From Rouxiella badensis (GTDB taxonomy: Bacteria > Pseudomonadota > Gammaproteobacteria > Enterobacterales > Enterobacteriaceae), in the NCBI RefSeq assembly GCF_002093665.1, contig NZ_MRWE01000034.1, positions 1-61,089 of the forward strand: a stretch of 61,089 nucleotides of DNA. The letters run 5' to 3'. Position numbers and translations under genes: made by a program. The notes beneath the pieces are model-generated. The model did no database searches. It was not told the origin of the DNA and was given only the letters and a program-made list of their open reading frames with translations. Positions 39,555-45,126 of this stretch are shown piece after piece; position 1 is the stretch's first letter, and each line of letters begins with the position of its first letter.

Positions 39555-39603
39555 GCCGTTGACTGAATCGTGACACCCCGCGGTGGCACTTAGAGTAGAA
39601 CGT

Positions 39604-39630
39604 AAAAAACCGGCCTTGGCCGGTTTTTTT
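39604..39630. terminator. bidirectional terminator between pykA and lpxM
   Basis: AAAAACCGGCC and GGCCGGTTTTT pair around a 2-base gap (effective loop CTTG). It separates convergent pykA and lpxM. Confidence 0.9.
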
Positions 39631-39642
39631 GTGCCTTACCCC

Positions 39643-40617
39643 TTAGCGTGGGTAAAGTTCGTCACGGGTGTACGGCTCCTGCTCGCCCGGCTTGCGGGTT
39701 TTAAGCAGTTTAAGGATCCAGGTGTACTGCTCGGGATTAGGCCCAACCAATACCTCGACCTCTTCGTTCATACGACGCGCGATGGTAGCATCATCAGCCG
39801 TTGCCAAGTCGTACATCGGCGGGCGGATATGGATATCAAGACGATGTTTTTTGCCATCATACACCGGGAAAAGCGGCACGATTTCAGCGCGGCACACTTT
39901 CATCAGCCTACCGACCGCCGGAAGCGTAGCCTTATAGGTTGCAAAGAAATCGACAAACTCGCTGTGTTCCGCGCCGTGGTCCTGATCCGGCAGATAATAG
40001 CCCCAGTATCCCTGACGAACCGAGCTGATAAACGGTTTTATCCCGTCATTGCGCGCATGCATACGGCCGCCAAAACGACGTCGTACGGTATTCCACAGAT
40101 AGTCACTCAGCAGGTTCTTCTGGTTATGGAACATCGCCGCCATCGGCTGACCGGTCGCCGCCATCAGCATGGCAGGAATATCCACCGCCCAACCGTGAGG
40201 CACCAGAAAGATGATGTTCTTCCCTTCTGCTTTCAGGCCATCAACTATCTCCTGATTGTGCCAGTGAACGCGTCCAAGCAGCTTTTTCGCATCGCCACGG
40301 CAGGCCAGTTCGGCCATCATCACCATCGACTGCGGCGCAGCGGCAAACATGTCGTCAATTATCTCTTCACGGCGTGCTTCGGGCAATTCAGGCAGGCAGT
40401 AAAGCAGGTTGATGCGCGCACGGCGACGGGCCCCTTTCGCGAACTTTCCTGCCAGACGACCGAGTCCGCCCAAAATCGGGTCACGAATCGGTGCCGGAAC
40501 GTAAGCCATTGCCGCCATTGCGCCAACGCCCAACCAAATGCCCCAGTAACGCGGATGATAAAAGGCTTTTTGGAACTGCGGGATAAACTCAACGTTCGAT
40601 TTTTTTTCTGATTGCAT
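39643..40617 (-). CDS. lpxM: lipid A myristoyltransferase LpxM
   Basis: LpxM (MsbB, 324 residues) adds the last secondary acyl chain to lipid A at the inner membrane. The catalytic HX4D motif is VPHGWAVDIP. An N-terminal hydrophobic anchor spans about residues 25-45, and YLPDQDHG is conserved. It is downstream of mepM in the same direction, 160 bases apart. Confidence 0.95.
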   Translation of the reverse strand: MQSEKKSNVEFIPQFQKAFYHPRYWGIWLGVGAMAAMAYVPAPIRDPILGGLGRLAGKFAKGARRRARINLLYCLPELPEARREEIIDDMFAAAPQSMVMMAELACRGDAKKLLGRVHWHNQEIVDGLKAEGKNIIFLVPHGWAVDIPAMLMAATGQPMAAMFHNQKNLLSDYLWNTVRRRFGGRMHARNDGIKPFISSVRQGYWGYYLPDQDHGAEHSEFVDFFATYKATLPAVGRLMKVCRAEIVPLFPVYDGKKHRLDIHIRPPMYDLATADDATIARRMNEEVEVLVGPNPEQYTWILKLLKTRKPGEQEPYTRDELYPR

Positions 40618-40777: not shown

Positions 40778-42112
40778 TCAGAGTTTCAGCTGCGGCATCA
40801 CTTCACGCACCGTAGACAGATAGTCTTTCAGGTCCTTGCCGCTGAGGCCTTCGGAGCGCGGCAGCTTGGCGGTCAGCGGATTGACGGCGACGTTGTTGAT
40901 CCACACTTCAAAGTGCAAATGCGGCCCGGTTGAACGCCCGGTATTCCCTGACAGTCCAATACGTTGACCACGCTTCACTTTTTGTCCCGGCTTAACCAGC
41001 ACCCGGCTGAGATGCATATAGCGGGTCATATACTGACGCCCCTGACGAAGCGCAACGTAGTTACCCGCCGCGCCGCCGTTCTTGGCGACGATCACCTCAC
41101 CGTCACCGACGGCCAGTACCGGCGTACCGATAGGCACCGCAAAATCGACGCCGCGGTGTGGCGCAATACGGCCGGTGACCGGATTAAGGCGACGTGGGTT
41201 GAAGTTGGAGGAAACGCGGTACTGTCTGAGGGTTGGGAAACGCAGAAAACCACGCGCCAGCCCGCTGCCCGAACGGTCATAGAACTTTCCGTCTTCGGCG
41301 CGAATGGCATAGTAATCTTTACCGCCGCTGCGCATATGGACGCCGGCGAGTTCGCTCTGCTGGCTCTTGCCGTCGAGCATTTCGCGCGACATCAACACCG
41401 AGAACTGATCGCCTTTACGCAATTTTTTGAAGTCCATCTGCCACTGTAGGGCTTTGACCACCGCGCCGATTTCGGCATTGGAGAGACCAGCTTCCTTAGC
41501 GCTGCCGACGAAACTGCCGCCGACGGTGCCTTTGAGCACCTGGTCTTGCCATTCGCCTTTCAACATTTCGGTTGAGGCCTTGAAGCCGTTGCCGCTGCGG
41601 TCAAAAGTCACCGTCTCACGGCGCGACTTTTCCCAGGTCAGACGCTGTAAATCACCGTCGTCGTTAACCGTCCAGGACAGCTGCTGGCCTATCTTCAGAT
41701 TACGCAGGTCACTGTTTGAGGTTGCCAGCGCGGAGATATCAGACATGTCGATACCGTACTGATTCAGAATGCTGCTGAGCGTATCGCCGGTAGAGACCAC
41801 ATACTCGTGAACGCCCTTTTCGTTCTCGGTTTTATCATCGAGTTCATCTTTAGGGATATCCGCGGCGGGTGGCGAGTCACTGTCGTCGAGAGGTTCGCTC
41901 GCCTCAGGCAACAGGGAACGCACCTGTTGCGCGTCGAGAAGGATTTGTTTGGCAATAGGCTTTTGGTGATAACCGTCGTCATCATTATGATATACAAAGG
42001 GTTTTGATATCGCCATGGCCAGAGTTAGCGCGGTCAGTGACCCCAGCATGATACGGTGGGGTCGTGGAAGACTGTTGAGCGCCAGAGCGATCGATCGGGG
42101 TAGTAGCTGCAC
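40778..42112 (-). CDS. mepM: murein DD-endopeptidase MepM
   Basis: MepM (YebA, 444 residues; E. coli 440) cuts D-Ala-mDap cross-links to allow cell-wall growth. An N-terminal membrane anchor (about 20-38) is followed by an OapA/LysM-like segment with VVSTGDTLSSILNQYGID. The C-terminal M23 peptidase domain has the zinc ligands in HRGVDFAVP and HLHFEVW. It lies 19 bases after znuA, and the two are probably cotranscribed. Confidence 0.96.
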   Translation of the reverse strand: MQLLPRSIALALNSLPRPHRIMLGSLTALTLAMAISKPFVYHNDDDGYHQKPIAKQILLDAQQVRSLLPEASEPLDDSDSPPAADIPKDELDDKTENEKGVHEYVVSTGDTLSSILNQYGIDMSDISALATSNSDLRNLKIGQQLSWTVNDDGDLQRLTWEKSRRETVTFDRSGNGFKASTEMLKGEWQDQVLKGTVGGSFVGSAKEAGLSNAEIGAVVKALQWQMDFKKLRKGDQFSVLMSREMLDGKSQQSELAGVHMRSGGKDYYAIRAEDGKFYDRSGSGLARGFLRFPTLRQYRVSSNFNPRRLNPVTGRIAPHRGVDFAVPIGTPVLAVGDGEVIVAKNGGAAGNYVALRQGRQYMTRYMHLSRVLVKPGQKVKRGQRIGLSGNTGRSTGPHLHFEVWINNVAVNPLTAKLPRSEGLSGKDLKDYLSTVREVMPQLKL

Positions 42113-42131
42113 TTAAATGGATCCTTATAGC

Positions 42132-43064
42132 TTACTTCAGGCAGCTCACGTACTGAGAAGTCAGATGTGACAGGAAGTTCACATAGCTGTCCTTGGTCAG
42201 TGCGATACCGCCTCCCAGCGGATCCAATGTGCTCGTACGCACTGTTGTTCCCTGGGCAACGGCATTAATTATGGCCGGCCTGAACTGTGGTTCAGCAAAA
42301 ACGCAGACCGCTTTCTGCTCAACCAGCTGTGTTCGAATTTGATGTAATCGCTGTACTCCAGGCGGGATTTCAGGATTCACAGAGAGGCGCCCCATCGGCG
42401 ACAACCCGTAGTGTTTTTCAAAATAACTGAATGTATCCTGAAAAACAAAATATCCCTTTCCCTGAACAGGTTGCAGCATCTTACCAAGCTTTATGTCAGT
42501 TTTTGTCAATCCGGCTTCAAACTGGCGCAAGTTGGCATCTAATTGGTCCTTCTTTTGCGGCATTAGTTCCAATAATTTTGCGTGAATTGCGATAGCGGTC
42601 AGTTTCGCAATATCCGGGGAAAGCCACACCGACATGTCGTAGACGGCAGTTTGCTGATCGTCGGCGATTTTATTATGCGCACGAATGTCATGTTCACGCT
42701 GTTCTTGGTTATCCGCCGCCATAAGTAGGGGTTTCACTTCCGGGATTGCCGAGAGGTCGACGACGCGATTAGGCGGTAATTGCGCCACCGATTTGCTCAT
42801 AAAGCTTTCCATGTCCGGCCCTACCCACACCAGCAGATCGGCGCTACGCATGCGTTGCAGGTCGGAGGGATGCAAAGAATAGCCGTGGGGAGACTGACCG
42901 TCCGGCAGCAGGACATCCGTTGGCGTAACGCCATCGGCAATAGCGGCGGCGATAAAACCGAGCGGGCGCAAAGACGCCAATACTGCCGCCTGAGCGGTGG
43001 TGACCACGCTTGCGGTCAATAATGATGCGGCCATCACGGCGCGGATCAAGAAGGATTTTTTCAT
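42132..43064 (-). CDS. ZnuA-like periplasmic protein lacking zinc ligands
   Basis: This 310-residue protein has a signal peptide and aligns over its whole length with the zinc-binding protein ZnuA (start ASLRPLGFIAAAIADGV, end SQYVSCLK, cysteine pair retained). Compared with E. coli ZnuA recalled from memory, His60 is kept and the C-terminal Asp (DPLG, Asp281) is kept. The second His ligand (MHLW) is Ser145 (MSVWLSP) and the third (VFHD) is Gln209 (VFQDTF). The acidic residue before His60 is Pro, and the His-rich loop is replaced by a segment with only two His. High-affinity zinc binding is therefore doubtful. The znuCB genes that normally diverge from it are missing. The start at 43064 (MKKSFL) is more typical than the ATG at 43073. 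Confidence 0.85.
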   Translation of the reverse strand: MKKSFLIRAVMAASLLTASVVTTAQAAVLASLRPLGFIAAAIADGVTPTDVLLPDGQSPHGYSLHPSDLQRMRSADLLVWVGPDMESFMSKSVAQLPPNRVVDLSAIPEVKPLLMAADNQEQREHDIRAHNKIADDQQTAVYDMSVWLSPDIAKLTAIAIHAKLLELMPQKKDQLDANLRQFEAGLTKTDIKLGKMLQPVQGKGYFVFQDTFSYFEKHYGLSPMGRLSVNPEIPPGVQRLHQIRTQLVEQKAVCVFAEPQFRPAIINAVAQGTTVRTSTLDPLGGGIALTKDSYVNFLSHLTSQYVSCLK

Positions 43065-43073
43065 TTTGATCAT

Positions 43074-43498
43074 TTTTTCTGTTTCACAATAGGCTTATCG
43101 TTTTTATCGTTCTTAAGCCTGTTTTCAGACTAAGCATTTAGGTATTGCAGCAGTCTAGAATACTGCGCCCGCAGCCTGCCTGTCGGCAAATAGCTGAGAG
43201 CAAAAGAGAACTTTTGACTGGAGTTATCATTATTTTGTCAGAGGGGCGGCATTATACCATTGGAATTGAGTTTTAATTTCAAATTTGATCTTTTTAGGGG
43301 AGTACAGCGGGGACGGGAGGAACAAAATGGAAAAAAGGCGCAGAGAGGCAAGAGGTACTGACTTCCCCCTCTTGCCCAGGTTCGCTGCGGTGGCCTATCG
43401 AAGCCGATAAGCCATAAAAGCGACTCGGCGTAGATTGACGTTGGCCTTAAAGACAATCTCCACAAACAGCGCCGCGGGCCACCAGCCAAAAAAACCTT
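43074..43498. other. spacer where znuCB is expected but absent
   Basis: In E. coli znuC and znuB lie between znuA and ruvB on the opposite strand. Here only 425 bases remain. No ATPase or permease fragment could be found in any frame by eye, and no Zur box (paired GTTATA/TATAAC halves) is visible before znuA. Nothing else is recognised apart from short open frames. Confidence 0.5.
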
Positions 43499-44503
43499 TT
43501 ACTCAGGCCGGGTCATCCCAAAATGCCGGTAAGCATGATGGGTCGCCATACGCCCACGCGGTGTGCGTTGAATGAATCCCTGCTGAATGAGGAAGGGTTC
43601 AATGACGTCTTCAATGGTTTCGCGCTCTTCGCCAATCGCCGCCGCGAGGTTGTCCAGTCCAACCGGGCCGCCGGTAAATTTGTCGATAATTGCCAGCAAC
43701 AGCTTACGGTCCATGTAATCAAAGCCCTCGGCGTCGACGTCAAGCATGTCCAGTGCGCCGTTGGCAACGTCACCGTTGATGGTGCCGTCGCCTTTGACCT
43801 CGGCGAAGTCACGCACACGGCGCAGCAGTCGGTTGGCGATACGCGGCGTACCGCGTGAACGGCGAGCGATTTGATGCGCGCCCTCCTCCGACAGCTCAAG
43901 CCCCAGACAAGACGCGCTGCGCCCCACAATGTGCTGCAAATCGGCAACCTGGTAAAACTCCAGGCGTTGCACGATACCAAAACGGTCGCGCAGTGGAGAG
44001 GTCAATGACCCCGCCCGCGTCGTCGCACCGATCAGCGTGAACGGCGGCAGATCGAGTTTGATAGAGCGCGCAGCCGGGCCTTCACCAATCATGATATCCA
44101 GCTGATAGTCTTCCATTGCCGGATACAGCACCTCTTCAACTACCGGTGAAAGACGGTGAATTTCATCGATAAACAGCACGTCGTGAGGTTCGAGGTTGGT
44201 CAGCATCGCCGCGAGGTCACCCGCCTTTTCCAACACCGGACCCGACGTGGTACGCAGGTTCACGCCCATCTCGTTAGCAACAATGTTGGCCAGCGTAGTT
44301 TTACCCAGTCCGGGAGGACCGAAAATCAGCAGGTGATCCAGCGCGTCGCCGCGCTGTTTGGCCGCCTGAATGAAGATCTCCATCTGCGAACGAACGTGCG
44401 GCTGCCCAACGTATTCGGACAACAGTTTAGGACGAATCGCTCTGTCGATAACTTCTTCTTCGCTGATAACACCAGCAGAAATAAGACGGTCAGCTTCTAT
44501 CAT
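43499..44503 (-). CDS. ruvB: Holliday junction helicase motor RuvB
   Basis: RuvB (334 residues) is the AAA+ motor for branch migration. Walker A is [11 protein letters not shown], Walker [11 protein letters not shown], sensor 1 LIGATTRAG, and the C-terminal winged-helix domain has RTPRGRMAT. It follows ruvA by 8 bases. Confidence 0.98.
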
Positions 44504-44511
44504 CTGTTACC

Positions 44512-45126
44512 TCACAGAGCCGCGCGAAGCGCTTCTCTAATCAATGTCTCGCACTCTGCGCCGGGTTTGGCCACTTTACTGATCATTCGGCTCGCCTCTG
44601 GCGGCTTATAGCCGAGAGAAATGAGTGCGGCAACCGCTTCGCCTTCGGCGTCAGACTCTTTCGCCTTCGACGCAGCAGCAGGCAGGTTAATATCGACCGG
44701 ATTGTTAAACAGGTCGCCGTTGAGCCCTTTAAAGCGGTCCTTCATTTCAACCACCAGACGTTCGGCGGTCTTCTTGCCCACGCCAGGCAGCTTGATAAGC
44801 GAGGTGATTTCTTCTTTCTCTACCGCACTCACAAACTGCTGCGCAGACATGCCAGAGAGAATAGCCAGCGCCAGCTTCGGCCCTACGCCGTTGACCTTAA
44901 TAAGCTCGCGGAACAGCGCACGTTCCTGTTTATCATTGAAGCCGTAAAGCAGCTGCGCATCTTCACGCACGATAAACTGGGTGAAGACCACCGCTTCTTG
45001 CCCCAGCTCCGGCAGTTCGTAAAAACAGGTCATCGGCATGTGCACTTCATAACCCACGCCGTTGGTTTCCAACAGCACTAACGGGGGCTGTTTTTCCAGA
45101 ATAATGCCTCTGAGACGACCTATCAC
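44512..45126 (-). CDS. ruvA: Holliday junction-binding protein RuvA
   Basis: RuvA (204 residues) binds four-way junctions as a tetramer and loads RuvB. The N-terminal OB domain ([12 protein letters not shown]), two helix-hairpin-helix motifs ([14 protein letters not shown] and [16 protein letters not shown]) and the C-terminal RuvB-binding domain are all present. Confidence 0.98.

Follow-up and report, generated by a model that had tools for sequence, protein, structure and literature searches.

An orphan ZnuA of Rouxiella badensis with two zinc histidines replaced and neither znuCB nor a Zur box found

The ZnuA protein of Rouxiella badensis is an orphan: no ZnuB or ZnuC is found for it, its gene has no Zur box, and two of its three zinc-binding histidines are replaced in the window, the 61,089-nucleotide stretch of DNA that was analysed, which lies on contig C32 of genome G000 (4.78 Mb, 72 contigs). 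The reading tentatively preferred here from the sequence comparisons, at somewhat less than even confidence, is that this transport-dead ZnuA has been retained for a metal-independent role, probably one tied to the znuA-mepM unit. The features on which the argument rests are collected in Table 1.

Table 1. Features of the ruvB-znuA-mepM stretch, in window coordinates
Feature	Coordinates	Strand	Remarks
ruvB	43499..44503	-	Upstream neighbour of znuA
znuA-ruvB spacer	43074..43498	-	Site of znuCB and the Zur box in relatives
TGGTATAAT, possible extended -10 promoter element	43251..43259	-	Weak candidate, read by eye
Orphan znuA, 313 aa	42132..43073	-	Intact frame; N-terminal signal-like segment, Cys257/Cys311
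His63 codon (E. coli His60), sole zinc histidine retained	42885..42887	-	Alignment; coordinates from ORF start
Ser148 codon (E. coli His143 position)	42630..42632	-	Alignment
Gln212 codon (E. coli His207 position)	42438..42440	-	Alignment
Synonymously constrained block 1, aa 157-212	42438..42605	-	Observed/expected synonymous differences 0.60-0.79, 188 pairs; includes GGAACTA
Synonymously constrained block 2, aa 237-276	42246..42365	-	Observed/expected 0.48-0.71; alignment
mepM	40778..42112	-	Downstream neighbour, 19 nt past znuA

Loss of znuCB and the Zur box

The first-pass annotation described a znuA-like gene that keeps its frame, its cysteine pair and one zinc histidine, and all three are borne out. 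The protein scores 433.4 bits against the NCBIfam ZnuA equivalog NF007091, for which the cut-off is 268, and the gene stands in the conserved ruvB - znuA - mepM order. In E. coli, znuCB lie divergent from znuA within the same ruvB-mepM stretch, and they adjoin znuA in 12 of 13 named loci, the exception being M24T3. mepM comes next after znuA in the 13 loci examined, although in L026 mepM is cut off after 38 aa.

The absence of znuCB between znuA and ruvB, read at first from this stretch, extends to the genome. No znuCB were found elsewhere or on another contig across the G000 assembly, which is given as 100% complete; its three ABC-3 permease genes belong to two other loci. The loss is common to two congeners: at E<=1e-50, G001, G002 and G005 have a ZnuC and G000, G003 and G004 have none. 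A survey of 295 family genomes gave ZnuA matches in 221 and ZnuB matches (E<=1e-40) in 233. When the two lists are compared by eye, G000 and G004 are the sole genomes of the 221 in which ZnuA is strong and ZnuB missing. Three genomes of 0.6-0.8 Mb (G063, G094 and G133) show weak ZnuA matches only and no ZnuB. Two other orphan suspects, G156 and G166, were rejected, as their znuCB are in place with znuB matching in pieces. These pieces are seen in loci L046 (G156) and L047 (G166), and in L047 mepM and ruvB are broken up as well; sequencing errors may be responsible.

Within the spacer, similarity to the corresponding znuCA spacer in G001 is limited to about 58 nt adjoining znuA, and no znuCB remnants were found there apart from these. 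The spacer also contains TGGTATAAT, which was not among the hits of the promoter scan, and an Rfam scan of 41500-44600 returned a single chance-level match only. The earlier failure to see a Zur box stands on both searches made for it. In the ruvB-znuA interval the matrix scores at most 9.0 bits, against a 95th percentile of 9.7 for shuffles, and a pattern search allowing up to 3 mismatches gave 0 sites in the window, so that Zur control of znuA is indicated by neither. The znuCB-bearing loci have a Zur box of 26.3-28.6 bits in 10 of 10 scored, a range that is partly circular since these same boxes supplied most of the matrix; the orphans have one in 0 of 3.

The trees fit either one loss of znuCB or two. 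G000 groups with G002/G005 in the flanking-gene tree (64) and with G003/G004 in the znuA tree (93), while the 19-gene trees place it either way at 48 and 55, with an antisense frame over lpxM (39583-40611) wrongly standing in for lpxM in that set and in its difference counts.

Apart from znuA, the Zur regulon of G000 looks alive, because Zur-like sites stand at a range of other loci. The genome search proposed earlier located two metal ABC loci of this kind. An AztABC-like locus on C48 (L007, 7219-10540) has an exact Zur-box-like site upstream, and its proteins fall below the NCBIfam cut-offs for AztA (203.7/220 bits), AztB (251.1/280) and AztC (265/350). A further metal ABC locus on C57 (L008, 9318-12774) has a site with 1-2 mismatches. 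Exact or similar sites also precede a GTPase-like gene on C69 (an exact site), zinT on C11 (L096:1852-2499; 1 mismatch) and small ribosomal-protein-like ORFs adjoining the C48 operon, the GTPase-like gene and these ORFs being named by eye. Only exact and near-exact sites were used, as the hits of the first genome-wide pattern at two mismatches were no more than those of a reversed control; that pattern would also overlook the znu box itself, which has 3 mismatches. A separate exact Zur-box-like site was observed at L095:2034-2048 (G000 C48:20833-20847), between cysS-like and ppiB-like genes named by eye.

These loci suggest how the orphan could have arisen. The two metal ABC loci with Zur-box-like sites would have covered zinc uptake and made znuCB dispensable, and deletion of znuCB together with the Zur box would have ended the transport role of ZnuA. 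The zinc pocket may then have drifted.

An altered pocket in a constrained protein

Alignment places the changes in the pocket. The zinc ligands of E. coli ZnuA, which we take to be H60, H143 and H207, correspond to H63, S148 and Q212 in the window; the two replacements are those first reported as Ser145 and Gln209, numbered from the second ATG. All three histidines are present at 63, 148 and 212 in 63 of 63 reference rows (the family plus named relatives, with two row pairs being duplicates), which excludes a shift of the histidines to neighbouring positions. In the sisters G003 and G004 all three are gone, replaced by Gly, Arg and Arg; the congeners G001, G002 and G005 keep the histidines, znuCB and the Zur box.

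Two other features had been read as signs of loss. The proline beside the first histidine proves ordinary, with Pro in 38 of the 63 reference rows and Glu in 25. The His-rich loop, described as gone, is reduced rather than absent (2 His against a median of 8 in 68 rows), and a short loop with 3 and 4 His also occurs in two congeners that have znuCB. More telling are the 127 sites conserved at >=95%: the window is altered at 16 of them and G003 at 16, against a median of 1 in the reference rows (maximum 12, in L030, Candidatus Fukatsuia symbiotica; next 6). The altered sites of the window cluster near the ligands, 8/31 within 8 residues vs 6/93 beyond (p=0.007), with p=0.07 for G003 tested alone. 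Leu replaces Phe at aa 230 in both orphan lineages via different codons, which hints at a parallel change. A structure model of ZnuA was poor (pLDDT 54) and was left out of the analysis.

The pocket bears directly on whether the protein still binds a substrate, either another metal or ligand or as partner of the C48 or C57 permease, an improbable reading. The window protein retains Asp284 and His63, conservation extends to the fold, the genome has three metal-type permeases, and ZinT, a proposed partner of ZnuA in E. coli, is found in G000 alone among the six congeners. Yet C48 and C57 each have a binding protein of their own, znuA lacks a Zur box, and the pockets of the two orphan lineages are unlike. 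The new ligand raised in the first-pass annotation is not favoured, at least as one shared by both lineages: their pockets are filled differently (His/Ser/Gln vs Gly/Arg/Arg), and this argues against it.

Selection was followed with a purpose-written codon model in which znuA is split by position and dN/dS is expressed as omega. The near-ligand class comprises codons within 8 residues of aa 63, 148, 212 and 284 (68 codons); the other classes are the 5' part away from ligands (90 codons) and the slow blocks (110 codons). By the model fit, constraint has loosened around the metal ligands, while in the remaining 5' part no relaxation is detectable. Near the ligands, omega rises from 0.043 to 0.248 in orphans (p=2.5e-5; still below 1), making this neighbourhood about six times freer, while it goes from 0.143 to 0.113 in the 5' part (p=0.49), where omega=1 is rejected at 4e-15, and from 0.308 to 0.224 in the slow blocks (p=0.52). 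These estimates come from orphan branches that include pre-loss time, with the loss undated and dS on long branches near saturation. The dN/dS comparison proposed earlier thus divides by region, being raised near the ligands and unchanged in the 5' part. A loop partition (aa 213-243 and 277-292), picked after the data were seen, goes from 0.045 to 0.425.

Protein identities follow the same pattern. Near the ligands they are 0.90-0.94 in three non-orphan pairs vs 0.66-0.75 in pairs with an orphan, and away from them the ranges overlap (0.55-0.65 vs 0.61-0.74). The window branch alone gives 0.28 vs 0.063 near ligands (p=0.0013) and 0.142 vs 0.204 elsewhere (p=0.26); the G003/G004 stem alone is less clear, with 0.166 near ligands (p=0.07) and 0.297 vs 0.185 elsewhere (p=0.11). 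Near-ligand values on control branches are 0.038 for G001 (p=0.43) and 0.041 for the outgroup stem (p=0.34), and, as a point against the preferred reading, the non-orphan G002/5 stem has a point estimate of 0.288 (p=0.52).

Early decay, with znuA on its way out and the loss too recent for the frame to have broken, is a reading of low probability and is disfavoured by these comparisons, in keeping with the earlier view that the gene is not simply decaying. Whole-gene omega is modestly up in orphans (0.232 vs 0.151 in the rest of the tree, 2 delta lnL 5.0; mepM has 0.073 vs 0.060), the G003/G004 lineage shows its mild rise away from ligands, and each lineage lost its ligands differently. Against this, omega=1 is rejected for the whole gene in orphans (2 delta lnL 80), and the frame is open and the signal segment kept in all three orphans, G000, G003 and G004, in two lineages; frameshifts in the sister genomes had been named in advance as a mark of decay. 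Had neutrality applied to the entire gene for the time required to alter the pocket, omega in the 5' part should be about 0.32, which is rejected (p=3e-4); if the near-ligand estimate is taken at its low end, the test against decay becomes marginal (5' omega 0.2, p=0.055). G003 and G004 differ at 4 nonsynonymous and 8 synonymous codons of znuA, a pattern below neutral (p=0.003-0.012 by kappa) and without significant difference from the ratio of 27:118 in the flawed set of 19 genes (p=0.26). The gene therefore shows neither the broken frame nor the neutral amino-acid change of a pseudogene, with the date of the loss left aside.

Slow synonymous sites and the link to mepM

The earlier statement of good conservation elsewhere in the protein holds for the 5' part away from the ligands, which is constrained as in a transport-competent ZnuA; in the 3' half the conservation is partly a nucleotide-level effect. 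Synonymous differences are rarer in the 3' than in the 5' half of znuA in 2012 of 2080 pairs (65 sequences), and they are depleted in two blocks separated by a loop, aa 213-236, of normal synonymous divergence. The slow sites are equally strong in species with znuCB in the sampled family, and comparable slowness was not seen in ruvA, ruvB, lpxM or most of mepM. Because synonymous sites are slow there in non-orphans too, 3'-half conservation says little about the protein, leaving the 5' part and the loops as the informative regions. An overlapping reading frame was rejected as the cause, no frame in the 3' half being consistently long. Conserved strings in the slow region include TTGGAACTTATGCCGCAAAA and CAGTTGGTTGAGCA. 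At one place the 65 sequences read GGAACTT in 43, GGAACTA in 12 (the Rouxiella form) and GGAAGTT in 2, of which GGAACTT resembles a sigma-E -35 element. The 3' half of znuA may thus carry a cis-element for the co-transcribed mepM, a hypothesis that gives the slow sites a bearing on whether mepM has a promoter within znuA.

Taken further, this becomes the main rival to a retained protein function: the 3' half would be a DNA or RNA element for mepM, the frame would be kept so that mepM is expressed, and the protein itself would be jobless, with misfolding of an exported protein selected against. This is possible but on balance rather doubtful. The slow blocks fit it, as do passages in the literature: PMC7705223, in part, reports co-transcription of znuA and mepM in E. 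coli and Erwinia; PMC6381278 allows for a promoter of mepM within znuA that is independent of Zur; and PMC2731931 places yebA(mepM)-lpxM among the sigma-E responders (1.9; 1.4), its main text making no mention of znuA. The sigma-E SELEX site listed at yebA in an excerpt of PMC5493296, however, apparently lies inside yebA and not znuA, and the match to GGAACTT is GGAACTA in Rouxiella. Nor does such an element alone predict that amino-acid constraint should stay the same in the 5' part, a region of free synonymous sites.

Retention of the protein for a metal-independent role would account for that constraint if a folded periplasmic protein still does something without bound zinc. The likeliest setting would be the envelope, through the transcription unit that znuA shares with mepM, and the protein might for instance play an accessory part close to the MepM endopeptidase; this tie to MepM is a guess drawn from gene order and from the co-transcription reported for other species. 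A broader version, which seems unlikely, is that ZnuA proteins have a second, hidden metal-independent envelope function, perhaps with MepM, and that this became the sole function in the Rouxiella orphans. If the preferred reading is true, nature has here separated a solute-binding protein from transport, its pocket and partner gone and the rest under selection, and a non-transport role of ZnuA becomes open to a simple deletion test.

Comparison with known systems

No report of an orphan or ligand-less ZnuA was found in the open-licence PMC literature, and the finding, if true, shows how the standard Enterobacterales zinc importer can be replaced. A parallel is offered by ZniCBA of Klebsiella, a second zinc importer that, according to part of PMC10797113, can sit beside ZnuCBA. 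Klebsiella with ZniCBA retains ZnuCBA, unlike the Rouxiella orphans. The C48 locus is like AztABC and has its exact Zur-box-like site, but its proteins score below the Azt cut-offs.

The window protein occupies the same ruvB-mepM position as the ZnuA of other Enterobacterales, a cluster A-I / cluster 9 solute-binding protein (PDB 2ogw, 2osv). It is about 56% identical to E. coli ZnuA, in the same length class, and shares the cysteine pair and Asp284. It departs from Enterobacterales ZnuA in being an orphan without znuCB, the Zur box and two of three histidines, or three of three in G003/G004. Like other orphan solute-binding proteins, it is encoded by a binding-protein gene without an adjoining transporter. 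Unlike them, the Rouxiella ZnuA is missing residues of its ligand site as well, and its direct ortholog in sister species belongs to a working transporter.
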